A DNA stretch of 64,000 nt from an uncultured Selenomonadaceae bacterium. Its GTDB lineage: Bacteria; Bacillota; Negativicutes; Selenomonadales; Selenomonadaceae. The notes under the pieces are model-generated. The model searched no databases and had not been told where the DNA came from. It saw nothing but the letters and a program-made list of their open reading frames with translations. Positions 8,985 through 55,146 of this stretch are shown here, piece by piece (position 1 is the stretch's first letter; each line of letters begins with the position of its first letter). The DNA lies in assembly GCA_905235685.1 (NCBI GenBank), contig CAJOMO010000002.1, forward strand, positions 1 to 64,000, written 5' to 3'. Both the position numbers and the translations under genes were made by a program.

Positions 8985-9809
8985 GTGTTAAAATTTTTAT
9001 TCGGGCTGATTTTGGCGGCGCTGTGGCTGTTGCCGTCAGTGACTTTCGCGCAGAGCCGAAACGTTTGGATTGACGGCGACCACGGCAGACTTTCCGCGGT
9101 AATTCAAACGCCGGACGGGCAAAACAGTTATCCGCTGGTTGTAATTTGTCACGGTTTCACGGCGAATAAAAATCAGCCGATGTTGGTGAAACTTGCTGAC
9201 TATCTTGAGGCGGCGGGTATTGCGTCGATTCGCTTTGATTTTAATGGACACGGCGAAAGCGAAGGCAGATTTCAAGATATGACTGTGCCAAATGAAATTG
9301 AAGACGTCAAGCACGTAATTGAATATGCGCGGGATATGCGCGGCGTGACGAGCGTATCAGTTGCCGGACATTCGCAAGGCGGCGTTGTAACAAGTATGGT
9401 TGCCGGTCAATTGGGCAGCGCGGAAATTAAAAGTATCGCGTTAATGGCGCCGGCGGCTGTCCTGCGCGACGATGCTATTCGCGGTTTGTTGTTCGGCAAA
9501 CAGTACGATTCAATTAATATACCGGAATACACAGAGATTTTTGACGGGCTGAAACTCGGCAGAAATTACGTTTTGACGGCGCAGAATTTGCCGATTTATG
9601 AAACCGCGGAAAATTACGACGGACCGGTTTTCATAGTTCACGGGCTGATTGATACGGTTGTTCCTTACACTTACGCTTTGCGCTATCAAGAAATTTATCA
9701 CGGCGGCGCTGAACTCGAACTTTTGGAAGGCTTTGACCACAGCTTTACTCAAGATGTTTCCGTTCCCGCCGGATTGGTTGCTGATTATTTCATTCGCCAA
9801 TTAAAATAA
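8985..9809 (+). CDS. Secreted alpha/beta hydrolase of the cinnamoyl (feruloyl) esterase type
   Basis: A 274-residue alpha/beta hydrolase with an N-terminal signal peptide (to about residue 22, VTFAQS). Visible features: the HGF oxyanion-hole region (VVICHGFTANKNQP), the nucleophile elbow GHSQGG, the acidic residue in HGLIDTVVP, and the catalytic His in GFDHSF. The overall pattern closely resembles Est1E-type feruloyl esterases of rumen bacteria, which release hydroxycinnamates from plant cell-wall polysaccharides; that substrate is an inference. The GTG at 8985 has AAGGGAG upstream and is preferred over the earlier TTG at 8955. The gene ends its operon before a terminator. Confidence 0.82.
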   Translation: MLKFLFGLILAALWLLPSVTFAQSRNVWIDGDHGRLSAVIQTPDGQNSYPLVVICHGFTANKNQPMLVKLADYLEAAGIASIRFDFNGHGESEGRFQDMTVPNEIEDVKHVIEYARDMRGVTSVSVAGHSQGGVVTSMVAGQLGSAEIKSIALMAPAAVLRDDAIRGLLFGKQYDSINIPEYTEIFDGLKLGRNYVLTAQNLPIYETAENYDGPVFIVHGLIDTVVPYTYALRYQEIYHGGAELELLEGFDHSFTQDVSVPAGLVADYFIRQLK

Positions 9810-45343: not shown

Positions 45344-46567
45344 TTACTCGCAAGCTGTTATTTTCTCAAAGTGTGGTCTTTCTTCGCCACTTATCCACAG
45401 CGTACCTAAAAGTTGTATGTTCATCGCACCAATTCTATCGTCATTGGAACGATAACCGCATTGGCAAATATATTCGTGTGTGTGGTGATGGCGGTTATTC
45501 TTATTGATTGAGCCACACTTCGGGCAACGTTGACTTGTATATTTCGCAGATACTTTCAAAACTTCACTGCAATTTTCGTGAGATTTATACGCTAAAAATT
45601 GCTCCAACTGATAGAAAGCCCACGACCTCAAATCATTATTTGCTTTTTTGCCGCGATTCAAATTGGTTTCTTCAAATGATATGCCGGTTAAATCTTCAAG
45701 TACAAAAAGCGTATTCGTGCCATATTTCTTAACGAGTGTCTTAGATAAGCAATGATTGACATCACTCATCCAGCGGTTCTCTCGTCCTGAAATTCTTTGT
45801 AAGGCTCTTTTCGCTGATTTTGTACCTTTAGCTTGAAGTTGTTGGCGTACTTTTAAAAAACTGTGACGCTTGCGAAGTATCTGCTTGCCGCGTGTAAATA
45901 ATGTTTTGCCGCGTTCGTCGTAAGTTACAGCTAAAAATCTTAAACCTCTGTCAATACCTACAACGTGCTGAACTTTTTCTTTGTCAAACTCTTCAAATTT
46001 TTTCGTGGCGGAAATGTGTAAGTACCAAATACCTTTGAGATTCAAAAGTTTGGCTGTTCCCAAATTCCATGAGCCGTCAAGATATTGCTCCCAAAAATCA
46101 CCGGCAAATTTAACTTTAGCGCGTTTATCAAGTGTATTAATTGAAAGCGTTGTGCCATTATCAACAAAACTGTAATCACGGTTACGCACTAAATCACATT
46201 GCGGACGGCGAAATAATACAGGCTTTAAAAGCCATTCAAGCGTTCGGTTAATGCGTTGATATTCGCCGCCTTCATCTCTGTATCGATAAGGTTTTTGTGC
46301 TAATTGTGTTTGAGTAGTTTTATAACGTGCGGTAGCAGTGCGAAAGGCAGATTGTGCCAGTTGAGATTTTAACGCAAATTTAAAGCGAACTTCACGATAA
46401 AGAACTTTGTTGAGTTTGGCAGAATTAAGCTCAAAATTGTTGTCAAAAATATATTGCGAAACGAAATTACAAGCTTGACGATATTTATCTGACATTTGCC
46501 GGAACATAGCAGATTGTTCAGCTGTAGTGTAAAGACGAAGCTTAACAGTCTTAGTAAGGTCTTGCAT
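45344..46567 (-). CDS. tnpB: TnpB, RNA-guided endonuclease of IS200/IS605 elements
   Basis: TnpB is an omega-RNA-guided DNA nuclease, ancestor of Cas12, that helps keep the element at its site. Three RuvC acidic motifs are intact: GIDRGLRFLAVT (Asp), FVLEDLTGI (Glu) and NDDRIGAMNI (Asp). The zinc ribbon is CPKCG...CQCG. The N-terminal OrfB helix-turn-helix-like region is complete. Length is 407 residues, typical. The ATG at 46567 has AAAGGAGGTG nine bases upstream. It appears intact and probably active. Confidence 0.92.
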   Translation of the reverse strand: MQDLTKTVKLRLYTTAEQSAMFRQMSDKYRQACNFVSQYIFDNNFELNSAKLNKVLYREVRFKFALKSQLAQSAFRTATARYKTTQTQLAQKPYRYRDEGGEYQRINRTLEWLLKPVLFRRPQCDLVRNRDYSFVDNGTTLSINTLDKRAKVKFAGDFWEQYLDGSWNLGTAKLLNLKGIWYLHISATKKFEEFDKEKVQHVVGIDRGLRFLAVTYDERGKTLFTRGKQILRKRHSFLKVRQQLQAKGTKSAKRALQRISGRENRWMSDVNHCLSKTLVKKYGTNTLFVLEDLTGISFEETNLNRGKKANNDLRSWAFYQLEQFLAYKSHENCSEVLKVSAKYTSQRCPKCGSINKNNRHHHTHEYICQCGYRSNDDRIGAMNIQLLGTLWISGEERPHFEKITACE

Positions 46568-46604
46568 CTGTTGCACCTCCTTTCAAGATTGTTTCAATAT
46601 AATT

Positions 46605-50143: not shown

Positions 50144-51793
50144 TCAACCTTTCGCAATATAATTATTTTCGTCCGCCCAATCGTCCGGCAAACCTTTCAC
50201 GAAAATAACCGGACAAGTCGAATTTTCAAGCACGTATTTTGAAACGCTGCCCATAATTTTCTCTTCCGCGCCGCCGAAGCCGTGACTGCCCATAACAATC
50301 AAATCGCAACCGTCAGCATTCGCAAATTCGGTAATGGTCTCGCCGGTTTCGCCAATTTCAACGCGCGTCTTAACCGGAATTTCCCGCGGCACGACTAACA
50401 TCAATTCGGAAAGGAAATCGTAAGCGGCGGCGTTCATTTCGCTCGGAATATAACCGCTCATACTAACCTGCTCGAAGGCGGAAATTTCCTGCTCAAGTTC
50501 AACGCACATCATCAGCGTAATTTTCGCATTGCACGCCGAGGCGATATGAATTGCCTGATTGAGCGCCTTGAAGGCTTGCCCCGAGCCGTCCGTCGGCACG
50601 AGAATATTTCTGATATTAATTCCCTGCCACGCGTCAACTGCAACTTCGCTGTGCAAATGTTCAAGCGTTTCTTTTTTGACAGTGGCGAGTAATTCATTGC
50701 GGCTTTTATAAAATCGCCAGCTGAACAACGTTGCCGCAATTCCCATGTAAACCATAAACGCGCCGATTTCTGAACTTATCGCCGTTAAACTTGCGCCGCG
50801 CTGAATTATGTCCCGCGTGAAATGGAATTGCCACGTGAGCGGGAAAATGTGCGCCAAATTTACGACCCACGGCGACAAATGAGACAGCGGGCTTGTCACG
50901 CCGCCCAAAATAAATCCGCCTGGTATGAACAAAATCATTCGGCTTGACGCCACGCCTGGGTTCGCCGCCGTCCAGCCCATAAATACGCTTATCACGCCAA
51001 TTGTCAGCGCCATTAAAATTTCTATAAACAAAAATTCCAAAACTCTGCCGCTGAAAACTAAATCGCCCCAAACTCTTAAAACCGCCATTCCCATAAATGT
51101 TGAGACTGTCAAGCAAAATGCGTAGGGAATTATGCGCCCGATTAAATCCCAGGGCGTGCCGTTCAGCATTGTCTTTTCGTAAACTTTGCTTAGTTTGAGG
51201 CGCGGTATCATTCCGATTGTTGCGAAGGTGAAAAACATTGCGCCAAAGAAAAATAAAAATCCTAGCGTCTGCGTATTCGACGTTGAGCCGGCGGGATTGA
51301 AAAGCGAACGGCTATTCAAAGTCAAGCCGCTTGAAGTCGTCGCGCCGGAATAAATTGCGTTGTCAATTGCGATAAGTTCGGGCATAGCCTCTTTGATATC
51401 GGCAGTCTGCGCGGTGTTGCTGTTGTCGTAGAAAATTCCAATCGGCGCTTCAGAACTTGTGTAACGATTTTTTTCAAGCCCCTCCGGAAGAAAAATCACG
51501 GCAACAACTTTATCGCGGTAAAAAAGCGATTCCGGATTCATCGGCGTATTGATAATCGCGGTAACCTTCATATATTCGCTGGAGTCAATTTTGGTAATGA
51601 GTTCGCGGCTGTAGCGGCTGTTGTCCAAGTCGATAACGGCAACCGGCGCGTCTTTGCTGAAATTGCCGCTTAATATCACCGACAAAATCACGCTTATAAC
51701 CATTGCGACCATTATGCAAACTTTTTCGTACGGCATACCGCGCCCGCTTAGCAAAAATTTTACTTCGTCCATTAGTGATGCTTTGAATCCCAC
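50144..51793 (-). CDS. ABC-2 type permease fused to a universal stress protein domain
   Basis: Residues 1-375 form an ABC-2 exporter permease of the YhgE/YbhR kind: one N-terminal helix (about 25-42), a large extracytoplasmic domain (VAVIDLDNSRYSRELITKI), then five or more helices (about 185-365, including IPGGFILGGVTSPLSHLSPW). Residues 398-540 are a Usp domain starting NILVPTDGS, with the ATP-binding pattern VMGSHGFGG...GSVSKYVLENSTCPV. The fusion suggests nucleotide- or stress-dependent control of export. The start is GTG 51793 with AAAGGGCGTGG upstream. The partner ATPase is not in the window. Confidence 0.85.
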   Translation of the reverse strand: MGFKASLMDEVKFLLSGRGMPYEKVCIMVAMVISVILSVILSGNFSKDAPVAVIDLDNSRYSRELITKIDSSEYMKVTAIINTPMNPESLFYRDKVVAVIFLPEGLEKNRYTSSEAPIGIFYDNSNTAQTADIKEAMPELIAIDNAIYSGATTSSGLTLNSRSLFNPAGSTSNTQTLGFLFFFGAMFFTFATIGMIPRLKLSKVYEKTMLNGTPWDLIGRIIPYAFCLTVSTFMGMAVLRVWGDLVFSGRVLEFLFIEILMALTIGVISVFMGWTAANPGVASSRMILFIPGGFILGGVTSPLSHLSPWVVNLAHIFPLTWQFHFTRDIIQRGASLTAISSEIGAFMVYMGIAATLFSWRFYKSRNELLATVKKETLEHLHSEVAVDAWQGINIRNILVPTDGSGQAFKALNQAIHIASACNAKITLMMCVELEQEISAFEQVSMSGYIPSEMNAAAYDFLSELMLVVPREIPVKTRVEIGETGETITEFANADGCDLIVMGSHGFGGAEEKIMGSVSKYVLENSTCPVIFVKGLPDDWADENNYIAKG

Positions 51794-51865
51794 GTAACCA
51801 CGCCCTTTCGCGCAATTTTATAATTTCCGCAAAAATTTTTCAACCTTCGCGCAGAAATAAAAAAT

Positions 51866-51887
51866 AGCCCAAGCCTAAGCCTGAGCC
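51866..51887 (-). terminator. Hairpin at the end of the RiPP-like operon
   Basis: Minus strand stem GCTCAGGC/GGCTTGGGC (with G-U pairs), followed by a T-rich run. It overlaps the stop codon of the 109-residue gene. Confidence 0.55.
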
Positions 51888-52204
51888 AATTTTAATTTTA
51901 AAAAGTTCAAATACTCCGCGTTGAAATTTTCTCGTAGCCACGCGCGCCCTTCGGAAGTTTTAATTTTTTCGGCGTAATTTTTGACGTCCTGCGCGATATC
52001 TCTGCCGCCCGCGATAATTTTTTTGTCAAGCAGAATATTTTTCTTGCCGGTCGGCGCGGTGATAAAATCGTCCGGATCTATCGGCAATCTGTCATAAACT
52101 GAATCGCGCCCCAATCTGAAAACGCGCCCCCAACCAGGAATAAGCCGCGTTTCAAATTCGTCCTCAATTTTATAGTCGTCCAGCGAATTTGAAAAATTAA
52201 TCAT
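51875..52204 (-). CDS. Unknown protein at the end of the RiPP-like operon
   Basis: A 109-residue protein not recognised. It is soluble and basic-acidic, with LIPGWGRVFRLGRDSVYDRL in the first third and a predicted helical C-terminus (AEKIKTSEGRAWLREN). The ATG at 52204 overlaps the last codons of the third small peptide by eight bases in another frame and has no ribosome-binding site, so it would depend on translational coupling. Its place directly behind the peptides suggests a role in recognition, protection or processing of the product, but nothing in the sequence proves it. Confidence 0.6.
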   Translation of the reverse strand: MINFSNSLDDYKIEDEFETRLIPGWGRVFRLGRDSVYDRLPIDPDDFITAPTGKKNILLDKKIIAGGRDIAQDVKNYAEKIKTSEGRAWLRENFNAEYLNFLKLKLAQA

Positions 52205-52271
52205 CGGCGGGGCAAGTACCAATCGGGCAAATATTTTCGCAAGACTTCACGGGTTGTACAATCATAATCAT
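52197..52271 (-). CDS. Putative RiPP precursor peptide 3
   Basis: A 24-residue peptide starting MIMIVQPVKSC and ending ENICPIGTCPADD. It shares the N-terminal IVQPV with peptide 2 and the core C-P-I-x-x-C-P with both others. AAGGAG lies seven bases before the ATG. It is the third of three tandem peptides behind the radical SAM gene, and is the most diverged, with three Cys. Too short for routine gene calling. Confidence 0.75.
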   Translation of the reverse strand: MIMIVQPVKSCENICPIGTCPADD

Positions 52272-52298
52272 ATTATCGTCTCCTTCGCAAAAAATTAA

Positions 52299-52382
52299 TC
52301 AATCGCCGTTAGGAATGCAAATTTTTATCGGAATGCAAATAAAACTTTCCTCTGCGGTTACCGGCTGAACAATAACTTCCAT
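52299..52382 (-). CDS. Putative RiPP precursor peptide 2
   Basis: A 27-residue peptide starting MEVIVQPVTAEE, with the core ICIPIKICIPNGD. The core is two C-I-P units separated by I-K-I and is encoded by a short direct repeat. GAGGTGA lies upstream at normal spacing. There is no signal peptide; the N-terminal IVQPV block is the probable leader recognised by the maturase. Confidence 0.78.
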   Translation of the reverse strand: MEVIVQPVTAEESFICIPIKICIPNGD

Positions 52383-52405
52383 TTAAATCACCTCGGCAAA
52401 TTTGT

Positions 52406-52486
52406 TTAAAATTGCGGGAAACAAACTTTGACGGGAAGGCAGAGCGGGAGTCCTTCCGCAAGCATCGGCTCAACAATCATTTCCAT
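52406..52486 (-). CDS. Putative RiPP precursor peptide 1
   Basis: A 26-residue peptide starting MEMIVEPMLAEG, with the core LCLPVKVCFPQF. It aligns residue for residue with peptide 2 across C-x-P-(V/I)-K-(V/I)-C-x-P. Its AGGTGA site overlaps the stop codon of the radical SAM gene, five bases upstream, so the two are translationally coupled. Confidence 0.78.
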   Translation of the reverse strand: MEMIVEPMLAEGLPLCLPVKVCFPQF

Positions 52487-52491
52487 AATTT

Positions 52492-53799
52492 TCACCTGCC
52501 CTGGGTATGACGCAAATATTTTTGGCGAACAATATTTTCAATATCATAGCGCCACTTCAAGCAAAGTTTATTTTTCCGTTCGAGCGCGAAATACGGACAG
52601 CCGCCCATGCAAATCGGCAAGACTTTGCAGTTGCGGCATTCTTCGTCGTCGAAGGGGCTGTGCAACATCCATACCGAAAGATTTTGTTCCGTCTGCACGT
52701 TATGAGCCACGCCGCGCTGGACGTCGCCGACTGGTATTCGTTCGCAGTCCCAGCATTTGTCGATATTTCCGTTCGGGCGAATAATAAACGATTTAATTTG
52801 ATCTGCGCCGCAGAAATTCAGTTTCGGCGCCGGATAAAACGGATATTTATTTTTGATTTGAAAACCTTCAGCCAGCATAATTTGTTTAAAAATTTCAGTC
52901 CAACGGGTATATTCCGGCGTCGACAGGCAAAGCGAAGTGTCCCATTCGTCAGTGCGGGAAATTGGCAAAATCTGCCCGAAAGAAATTTCGACGTTGTTTT
53001 TGCTGTCGCCCAATTCGGCGCTCAAATTTTTAATCAGCGGCTCGATTGTTTCAGCGTTCGATTTATCGACATTGACGCGGAGCGCGATTTTAAAATTGTT
53101 TTCGACGATTTTTTTTACATTGGCAAGAATTTTATCGAAAGTTGCGCCGCCGGATTTCAAACAGCGCCGCTTATCGTGCGCGGATTTATCGCCGTCAATC
53201 GTTATCTGCAGCGTGTCGATTTTATATTTTTTGAGATTGGAAATAATTTCGTCGTCAAGCAGATAGCCGTTCGTGACAATAAAAGCGCTGTATTCGCAGG
53301 AATTATCCGCGGCAATTTCAATGAGCGCCTCGGACATTTCCCAAACAATATCAGCCGCCAAAAGAGGCTCGCCGCCGAACCAGCACACGCGCAAATTTTT
53401 GACGCCGAACAGATTTTTCTTGACAAAATCAATCGTTGCAGCAATAATTTCGGGTGTCATACGAATCTGTTGCTTATTTTCAAAGCAATAGAAACAGGCG
53501 AAATTGCAGGCGTCCGTCGGCATGATCGTCATCGTCAGCGCGTCTGTTTCGAATTTGCTTTTCCAATATTTGAGTTCCAAAACTTTCAATTCGTCGACAG
53601 ATTCCTCAATGAGAAAACCGGCGTTGCACATATTTTCGCGCAGAATTTTTTGTTCGGCGGTAAATTCGCTGTTAGGATTTTCCAAAATGCTCAAAAAATC
53701 GGAATTGACTTTGGCGAGCGCACAATTTTTCGCGTTGAAAACGATTGTATCAGCGCCTTCATTCACGATGAAATTGTACTTCGAGGCTTTGAGTTCCAT
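52492..53799 (-). CDS. Radical SAM/SPASM peptide maturase
   Basis: A 435-residue radical SAM enzyme of the peptide-modifying kind. Order: an N-terminal region of about 90 residues (KYNFIVNEGADTIVFNA, likely precursor recognition), the radical SAM cluster motif CNFACFYC (about 103-110), the barrel (CWFGGEPLLA; GYLLDDEIISNLKKY; LQITIDGDKSAHDKRRC), and a C-terminal SPASM domain whose cysteines bind auxiliary Fe-S clusters (NIDKCWDCERI; CRNCKVLPICMGGCPYF; KLCLKW). Such enzymes form thioether or carbon-carbon links in peptides. AAGGAG precedes ATG 53799. It heads the operon with the three small peptides, its obvious substrates. Confidence 0.9.
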   Translation of the reverse strand: MELKASKYNFIVNEGADTIVFNAKNCALAKVNSDFLSILENPNSEFTAEQKILRENMCNAGFLIEESVDELKVLELKYWKSKFETDALTMTIMPTDACNFACFYCFENKQQIRMTPEIIAATIDFVKKNLFGVKNLRVCWFGGEPLLAADIVWEMSEALIEIAADNSCEYSAFIVTNGYLLDDEIISNLKKYKIDTLQITIDGDKSAHDKRRCLKSGGATFDKILANVKKIVENNFKIALRVNVDKSNAETIEPLIKNLSAELGDSKNNVEISFGQILPISRTDEWDTSLCLSTPEYTRWTEIFKQIMLAEGFQIKNKYPFYPAPKLNFCGADQIKSFIIRPNGNIDKCWDCERIPVGDVQRGVAHNVQTEQNLSVWMLHSPFDDEECRNCKVLPICMGGCPYFALERKNKLCLKWRYDIENIVRQKYLRHTQGR

Positions 53800-53886
53800 T
53801 AGTTTCTCCTTGTCGAAATTAAAAATTCCTCATATCTGGGCAATAATATCACAACGCGCCACAAAGCGAAAGTTACATTTTCTTAC

Positions 53887-53909
53887 CCTGTAGGTACACT
53901 CGGTACAGG
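53887..53909. promoter_or_regulatory. Operator-like inverted repeat between the radical SAM gene and the flavodiiron gene
   Basis: CCTGTA (53887-53892) and TACAGG (53904-53909) form a 23-bp inverted repeat in the divergent intergenic region, just upstream of the fprA promoter. It could bind a dimeric regulator of either gene. Confidence 0.45.
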
Positions 53910-53910
53910 C

Positions 53911-53939
53911 TAGACAGAAATTCAAAATCGGTATACAAT
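53911..53939 (+). promoter_or_regulatory. Promoter of the flavodiiron protein gene
   Basis: TAGACA (53911-53916), 17-base spacer, TACAAT (53934-53939), then GAAGGAGG and the GTG start. Confidence 0.55.
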
Positions 53940-53967
53940 TTCTAAAAAATTTGAAGGAGGCTTTTTT

Positions 53968-55146
53968 GTGAACAATTGCAAGGCGGTTGAGATTGCGAAA
54001 AATATTTATTGGGTCGGCGCTATTGATTGGTCGATGCGGAATTTTCACGGCTACGAAACGGCGCGCGGTTCAAGTTACAACGCTTATTTGATTTTGGACA
54101 AAAAAATTACGCTGATTGACACGGCGAAAATTAATTTCAAAGACGAACTGCTTGAGCGAATTTCCGGCGTGATTGACCCCGCGAAAATTGACGTTATCGT
54201 TTCCAGTCACGTTGAGCCGGATCATTCGGGAAGTCTGCGCGAAGTTGCGGCGATTGCGAAAAACGCGGAGATTATTACAACTAATCCAAATGGCGTGAAG
54301 GGGTTGACGGCGCGGTACGGCGAATTGAATTACAAGCCGGTTAAGGCGGGCGACAGCATTTCGATTGGCGCGCGTACTTTGCAATTTGTGCCGACGCCGA
54401 TGTTGCATTGGCCCGATTCCATGGTAACTTATTGCCCCGAAGAAAAAATTTTGTTTTCTAATGACGCGTTCGGCGAACATTTTGCAACTTCAATGAGATT
54501 CGACGACGAAAACGATTTAGACACGATTTTATTTGAGGCGAAGAAATATTACGCGAATATTTTAATGCCGTTCGGCAAACAGGCGCAGGCAGCGCTCAAA
54601 GCTTTAGGCGATTTGGAAATTAATTTAATTGCCACGGGGCACGGCGTCATTTGGCGGAAAAATATTGGCAAGATTCTTGACTGCTACAAAAAATGGAGTT
54701 CCGGCGAAGTCGAAGAGCGCGCGGTTGTGGTTTTTGATTCGATGTGGCATTCGACAGAAATTCTCGCGCAGACGATAACCGAGGCTTTTGCTAAGCGCGG
54801 TATTCCGGCGGCGTATTACGATATCAAGGCAACGCCGCTGTCAGATATTGTCACGGATATTTTTATGAGTAAATATTTGGCGGTTGGCTCGCCCACGATT
54901 AACAATCAAATGATGCCGACCATTGCCAAATTTCTCTGCTACATTAAAGGTTTGCGCCCTCTAAATCACAAAGCGTTTGCGTTTGGCTCGTACGGTTGGG
55001 GCGGGCAAAGTATTGGACTTGTCGAGGACGAACTTAAAGCCGCGGGTATGGAAATTATTCTTGATAAAATTCGAATTGCCAATGTTCCCACCAAAACCCA
55101 GCTTGACGAAATTACCGAAAAAATTATTAACGGCATTTCTTTTTAA
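53968..55146 (+). CDS. fprA: Flavodiiron protein (FprA, A-type flavoprotein)
   Basis: Reduces oxygen (to water) or nitric oxide and so protects anaerobes. The N-terminal metallo-beta-lactamase-like domain holds the diiron ligands HVEPDHSGS (about 81-89) and further His (GHGVIW). The C-terminal flavodoxin domain (from about 250, VVVFDSMWHSTEILAQ) binds FMN, with SYGWGG near 345. Length is 392 residues. The start is GTG with GAAGGAGG upstream. The stop codon lies inside the first hairpin of repeat copy 4. Electrons may come from the flavodoxin or a rubredoxin. Confidence 0.95.
   Translation: MNNCKAVEIAKNIYWVGAIDWSMRNFHGYETARGSSYNAYLILDKKITLIDTAKINFKDELLERISGVIDPAKIDVIVSSHVEPDHSGSLREVAAIAKNAEIITTNPNGVKGLTARYGELNYKPVKAGDSISIGARTLQFVPTPMLHWPDSMVTYCPEEKILFSNDAFGEHFATSMRFDDENDLDTILFEAKKYYANILMPFGKQAQAALKALGDLEINLIATGHGVIWRKNIGKILDCYKKWSSGEVEERAVVVFDSMWHSTEILAQTITEAFAKRGIPAAYYDIKATPLSDIVTDIFMSKYLAVGSPTINNQMMPTIAKFLCYIKGLRPLNHKAFAFGSYGWGGQSIGLVEDELKAAGMEIILDKIRIANVPTKTQLDEITEKIINGISF

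Follow-up and report, generated by a model that had tools for sequence, protein, structure and literature searches.

Directly behind the gene of a radical SAM/SPASM enzyme in the window (the whole stretch of DNA analysed here, 64,000 nucleotides) lie three very short cysteine-containing reading frames, which raises the questions of whether they are real genes, whether the neighbouring enzyme acts on their products, and which bonds it would install. The reading that we consider fairly probable is that of a self-contained RiPP cassette from a Clo7bot-related clan, in which the leader strand of each peptide would bind to an RRE domain and the cysteines would be joined to other side chains by non-alpha thioethers, as in ranthipeptides.

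Three conserved peptide genes in a presence/absence cassette

All three small genes are real. The first-pass annotation had proposed them, each with a Shine-Dalgarno site, and every one was recovered at the position given there (Table 1). The Shine-Dalgarno site of peptide 1 (AGGTGA) overlaps the maturase stop codon and contains it, those of peptides 2 and 3 read GAGGTGA (52394-52388) and AAGGAG (52285-52280), and the spacers between the peptides measure 23 and 27 bp. No consensus promoter was seen 5' of the maturase on the maturase strand. We infer a single transcript that covers the maturase and the three peptides and ends at the terminator-like site.

Table 1. Coordinates of the cassette and its parts in the window
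Feature	Position	Strand	Basis
Radical SAM/SPASM RiPP maturase, 435 aa	52492..53799	-	ORF; NCBIfam TIGR04334 E 1.8e-118; invariant Cys; AlphaFold model
Maturase parts: N-terminal domain with predicted RRE fold, aa 1-86; CxxxCxxC at 98/102/105; SPASM Cys 330, 349, 388, 391, 397, 401, 413			
Precursor peptide 1, MEMIVEPMLAEGLPLCLPVKVCFPQF, 26 aa	52406..52486	-	ORF; conserved in G078; precursor-model match 7.8e-15
Precursor peptide 2, MEVIVQPVTAEESFICIPIKICIPNGD, 27 aa	52299..52382	-	ORF; conserved in G078
Precursor peptide 3, MIMIVQPVKSCENICPIGTCPADD, 24 aa	52197..52271	-	ORF; conserved in G078
Intrinsic-terminator-like hairpin closing the unit	51865..51888	-	10 pairs, loop 4, T-run; kept in G078
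Extent of the presence/absence module	51827..53944	no strand	blastn of flanks; absent in G004 and G018
109-aa ORF, overlaps peptide 3 at its end	51878..52204	-	inside the module, not a conserved component

In a chance test with 100 simulated 64-kb windows from a second-order Markov model, a strict leader-plus-core pattern was never encountered, compared with two occurrences in the real window, while a looser version of the pattern appeared on average 0.37 times per simulated window, compared with three in tandem in the real one. Broken peptide frames in relatives that keep the maturase had been named beforehand as evidence that would speak against precursors, and the opposite was found, as the frames are conserved alongside the maturase. 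In the closest genome, that of a sister species (G078) whose maturase is 93% identical to that of the window, all three frames are intact and carry 8 synonymous and 3 non-synonymous changes (pS 0.166 and pN 0.016, pN/pS about 0.1; for the maturase, pS 0.233 and pN 0.032). The intact frames and the low pN/pS show that the peptides are under purifying selection. Peptide 2 accounts for 5 synonymous changes and 1 non-synonymous change, and peptide 3 for 3 and 1, plus a change of stop codon; the non-synonymous change in peptide 3 converts its extra Cys11 to Tyr, so that only the two core cysteines are conserved. None of the window peptides matches an entry in NCBIfam or Pfam, and the TIGR04333 profile gave no match to them at E up to 10, the HMMER filters being weak for such short peptides.

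The first-pass annotation had regarded a 109-residue protein as completing the unit. We rejected this ORF as a component, because 236 bp of it are cleanly deleted in the sister species and no other homologue occurs in the 66 genus genomes; the terminator-like hairpin is kept in the sister species despite the loss of most of the ORF that precedes it. The module itself, 2.1 kb long, is a presence/absence cassette inserted between two genes that are direct neighbours in other species. In G004 and G018, which lack the 2.1 kb of the module, a flavodiiron-like gene (53968-55146 in the window) and an ABC-2/Usp permease gene (50147-51793) lie next to each other, the aligned flanks being 56 and about 80 bp apart. 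Apart from 8-bp AT-rich chance matches, no terminal repeats were found at the module ends. Elsewhere in the window, a TnpB/IS605-like transposase ORF (45344-46576, minus strand) was recognised by its sequence alone.

The permease gene, on the minus strand, encodes an ABC-2 type permease whose C-terminus is fused to a universal-stress-protein domain, with no ATPase gene seen beside it. The earlier remark that no transporter lies nearby is therefore not literally correct, as this gene, which occurs genus-wide, adjoins the cassette, but it is independent of the cassette and separated from it by the terminator-like site. The permease was also considered as an exporter and rejected: it is present in 37 of the 66 genus genomes irrespective of the cassette, which many of them lack, and it adjoins the flavodiiron-like gene in species without the cassette. 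Thus, it is not a dedicated exporter, and no dedicated protease or exporter for the cassette was found.

Family and predicted fold of the maturase

Among the NCBIfam models, the Clo7bot maturase TIGR04334 ranks top for the window maturase, with an end-to-end match (E 1.8e-118, 396 bits), followed by TIGR04463, CefB, FlmE/OhkG, the geopeptide maturase and PapB. All equivalog cut-offs are missed, so that the reaction is not transferable by homology; the 600-bit cut-off of TIGR04334 is passed in none of 398 phylum genomes (best 468.6). A position among sulfatase-type enzymes, which would have spoken against a peptide substrate, is not borne out, as the enzyme groups with RiPP maturases. Anaerobic sulfatase maturase was rejected as an identity (TIGR03942, 78 bits against a cut-off of 349), the window enzyme having an RRE domain and cysteine-containing peptide partners. 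The proposal of RiPP precursors with a radical SAM/SPASM maturase is hence supported both by frames conserved with the maturase and by its grouping, and the peptides are almost certainly modified by the adjacent enzyme. The cysteines of the full CxxxCxxC and SPASM set listed in Table 1 are invariant in 14 relatives.

The first-pass annotation had seen no nameable group to which the unit could belong, a view that has to be abandoned, as it falls in a Clo7bot-related clan in which short, often tandem, short-leader precursors are common. This clan of TIGR04334-like maturases also includes CefB and PapB-type ranthipeptide maturases. Like Clo7bot systems (peptide TIGR04333, maturase TIGR04334), the unit has short cysteine-containing precursors beside the maturase, often in tandem elsewhere as here, an arrangement that we take to be the defining Clo7bot feature. 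Unlike them, its maturase stays at 396 bits against the curated 600, and its peptides lack a TIGR04333 match and have only two conserved cysteines in 24-27 aa, within a C-x-P-[IV]-K-[IV]-C-x-P core. Across the 66 genus genomes, TIGR04333 gave no match over its cut-off and only sub-cut-off background, with 12 of 14 control genomes matched likewise, and the peptide family TIGR04065 gave no match, the controls being silent too. A full-text literature search found no paper using the name Clo7bot. The unit is a variant within the Clo7bot-related clan, with an unusual core.

Other members of the neighbourhood resemble the unit less closely. The 'Cys-every-fifth' system CefA/CefB (NF038108/NF038107) and TIGR04463 share the maturase clan (233 and 290 bits), but these scores lie far under the cut-offs (600 and 525), and the window precursors are devoid of Cys-every-fifth repeats. 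PapA/PapB (freyrasin) and the SCIFF/CteB ranthipeptides have the same RRE, radical SAM and SPASM architecture and cysteine cores, whereas the window maturase reaches only 128 bits against 340 for PapB and 85 against 425 for the SCIFF maturase TIGR03974. In addition, the window cores contain no CX3D motif series or repeated CX3D/E, and SCIFF peptides carry six cysteines in forty-five residues, compared with two to three in 24-27 aa here.

The AlphaFold model of the full maturase (pLDDT 87) matches over its whole length CteB (5wgg, Z 28.1, the best solved structure), a thioether-forming SCIFF maturase, and TigE (8vpo, Z 26.0), and its fold is in common with SPASM/twitch-type sactisynthases such as SkfB. 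A model of aa 1-86 alone (pLDDT 93.7) has its best fold matches in the TigE N-terminal domain, the MccB peptide clamp, lasso B1/RRE, NisB, PbtF, CteB and PqqD; only TigE reaches Z 8.9, the others lying at 4.7-8.0, but the leading matches are mostly RiPP peptide-binding domains. On this model, aa 1-86 are predicted to adopt an RRE fold. Despite these structural likenesses, TigE shares only 16-18% identity with the window maturase. We take it to be a cyclopropylglycine-type peptide maturase with a different chemistry on Ile/Val, residues that the window cores also contain, and its substrate repeats are presumably unlike the window cysteine cores.

The precursor branch and its wider family

Related maturases were found at E < 1e-40 in 21 of the 66 genus genomes, and in the tree the window enzyme forms one clade with those of G078, G082, G016, G032 and G013 (support 100/97). 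The maturases of G016, G032 and G013, with 45-48% identity, are each directly followed by one peptide of 26-27 aa, for example MIIILPPVNSSDDSCSLDICLPIKIVF, with the consensus M-[IT]-[IV]-I-[LV]-P-P-[VI]...C-S-L-D-I-C-L-P-I-K-I-V-F. These single peptides have the leader strand and a C-L-P-I-K-I core in common with window peptides 1 and 2, and within the branch the core Ile/Val/Lys residues are conserved nearly as well as Cys. A precursor profile gave E < 1e-8 among the 66 genus genomes only in G000, G078, G016, G013 and G032, and in all five the peptide adjoins a maturase of the same clade; as the profile was seeded from maturase-adjacent peptides, this co-occurrence is partly circular and supportive rather than independent.

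The sixth clade member, G082, has no peptide behind the maturase on its contig, which we attribute to an IS110-type transposase-like sequence, recognised by sequence reading, that lies directly behind the 66%-identical maturase (L056, G082:C144, after base 790). Besides, G032 has a second 45% maturase copy (L023, G032:C400, 220-400, minus strand) that ends inside the SPASM domain with no peptide behind it. A weaker profile match (2e-4) in G023 is MRFLVKPVKSISVSIICVPIKICIGHD, which combines the F-L-V-K-P leader of the wider family with the C-x-P-I-K-I-C core of the window branch. This precursor is intact and has a ribosome-binding site, and it lies behind a decayed maturase relic (L155, G023:C23, about 9000-9250, minus strand), seen as a frame with LLAKEIIWALSEKF... 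and also given as the frame LLAKEIIWALSEKFLRFCEKSSIDYKSLIVTNASLLEKSD....

Maturases of 35-39% identity typically have M-K-F-L-V-K-P peptides downstream, with 2-9 cysteines and in single, paired or triplet arrangement. In G324, from another genus of the same family, the maturase is followed by five tandem short peptides (24-30 aa, 1-3 cysteines each) with looser leaders, and relatives elsewhere in the phylum have precursors starting with MKFIVKP, MEWIVKP, MNWIVAP or M-Q-M-L-[IV]-E-G. The family leader pattern, on short and often tandem cysteine peptides, can be written as M-x-[FIVMW]-[LI]-[VI]-x-P. Of 42 precursors, 28 have F at position 3, 40 have L/I at position 4, 36 have V/I at position 5 and 34 have P at position 7, figures that are somewhat inflated, as some of the set were found by the leader pattern and others by cysteine count and ribosome site only. 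Even so, the very short leader is a rule of the family. Across the wider-family precursors, whose cores otherwise vary, only Cys recurs in the core, and the C-x-P-[IV]-K-[IV]-C-x-P core is a speciality of the branch.

Two further loci were noted among these genomes. The sister species has a second maturase, beside which lie three tandem F-L-V-[KER]-P precursors of 44-61 aa and 5-9 cysteines (L061, G078:C17, 3821-4342, plus strand), the middle one with terminal repeats such as CLIRTCPQRICTLVVIRTCP. A genus relative (G036:C130, L035) has a separate RiPP cluster, in which several successive radical SAM matches (1373, 2967, 4521, 7786) are accompanied by nif11-like leader peptides with a GG end and a cysteine core.

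Proposed chemistry, rival readings and possible function

In the reading that we favour, residues 2-7 of each peptide (x-[MV]-I-V-[EQ]-P), which form its N-terminal strand, would make up the whole leader, and the IV[EQ]P segment would most likely be added as an edge strand to the N-terminal RRE sheet of the maturase, as the CteA leader adds to the RRE sheet in CteB (PMC8326336). The core would then be fed to the active site for 5'-deoxyadenosyl-radical chemistry with the SPASM auxiliary clusters, and the core cysteines (Cys16 and Cys22 in peptides 1 and 2) would be coupled to a nearby side chain as non-alpha-carbon thioethers; with two conserved cysteines per peptide, a change of at most -4 Da is predicted. 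The acceptor could plausibly be the fourth residue beyond the first core Cys, giving CX3K in peptides 1 and 2. This residue is Lys in those two peptides (after Cys16) and in the single-peptide relatives (after Cys20), and Thr in peptide 3 (after Cys15). A general CX3K rule found no support over the 42 precursors, in which the i+4 residue is most often Cys or Gly, and CX3K is proposed for the window branch only. PapB installs thioethers in CX3D/E motifs and accepts widely differing cores and many spacings (PMC9413430). Except at the very end of peptide 3, the window cores have no Asp/Glu at that spacing, so the acceptor would differ from that of PapB. By analogy with PapB, the bonds are probably thioethers from Cys to a non-alpha carbon. 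We surmise leader binding, thioether bonds and acceptor residues alike, and release and export would fall to general host machinery.

The likeness to TigE, which matches the maturase at full length and tops the matches of the RRE part, raises the alternative of a RiPP system with C-C or desaturation chemistry on Ile/Val/Lys, of cyclopropyl or cyclophane-like kind, in which Cys would be free or in a disulfide. TvgB-type enzymes cyclise Val in short repeats (PMC9062424), and the near-equal conservation of Ile/Val/Lys and Cys in the branch would suit such a reaction. Yet the next-best curated families (Clo7bot, TIGR04463, CefB, PapB) are maturases of cysteine peptides and ranthipeptides, and Cys alone recurs among the wider-family cores; we regard this alternative as rather unlikely. 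More improbable still is a sactipeptide, in which the maturase and its three peptides would yield Cys-to-alpha-carbon thioethers. The fold held in common with SPASM/twitch-type sactisynthases would permit it, and sequence cannot tell the chemistry, but the nearest characterised profile relatives, PapB and SCIFF, are non-alpha, and one relative reached only 54 bits with the RumMC sactipeptide maturase family, whose cut-off is 720.

It is very hard to believe, and already contradicted, that these ORFs exist by chance, or that the peptides are metal-binding mini-proteins which stay unmodified and have no connection with the maturase. Two cysteines with adjacent Pro could bind metal, and the peptides are tiny and without a family model, but they are under purifying selection, the strict pattern is missing from all the simulated windows, and they co-occur with the maturase clade, with an equivalent cysteine peptide beside many related maturases.

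Under the thioether reading, the small peptide produced would probably act in signalling or antagonism. In clostridia, genes for quorum sensing and sporulation are influenced by SCIFF-derived ranthipeptides (reviewed in PMC8102284). Among rumen isolates, ranthipeptides form the most frequent predicted class and have no well-characterised antimicrobial activity (PMC13289728); for these reasons we hold a signalling role to be as likely as an antibacterial one. A bolder proposal, possible but doubtful, is that of a distinct RiPP subclass of ruminant-gut Selenomonadaceae, with 24-27-residue precursors, a leader of one six-residue strand, a C-x-P-[IV]-K-[IV]-C-x-P core with a Cys-to-Lys or undescribed bond, and no dedicated protease or exporter. 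All the Clo7bot-related maturases encountered in this analysis fall under every curated NCBIfam cut-off, and the literature search found no assigned product for them. The branch offers very small natural substrates, of 24-27 aa with a leader of about six residues and two cysteines, so that synthetic peptides could serve as a direct test of both the chemistry and the leader-RRE rule. Since the window peptides match no NCBIfam or Pfam entry, a whole precursor family of gut Selenomonadaceae is missed by the standard models.
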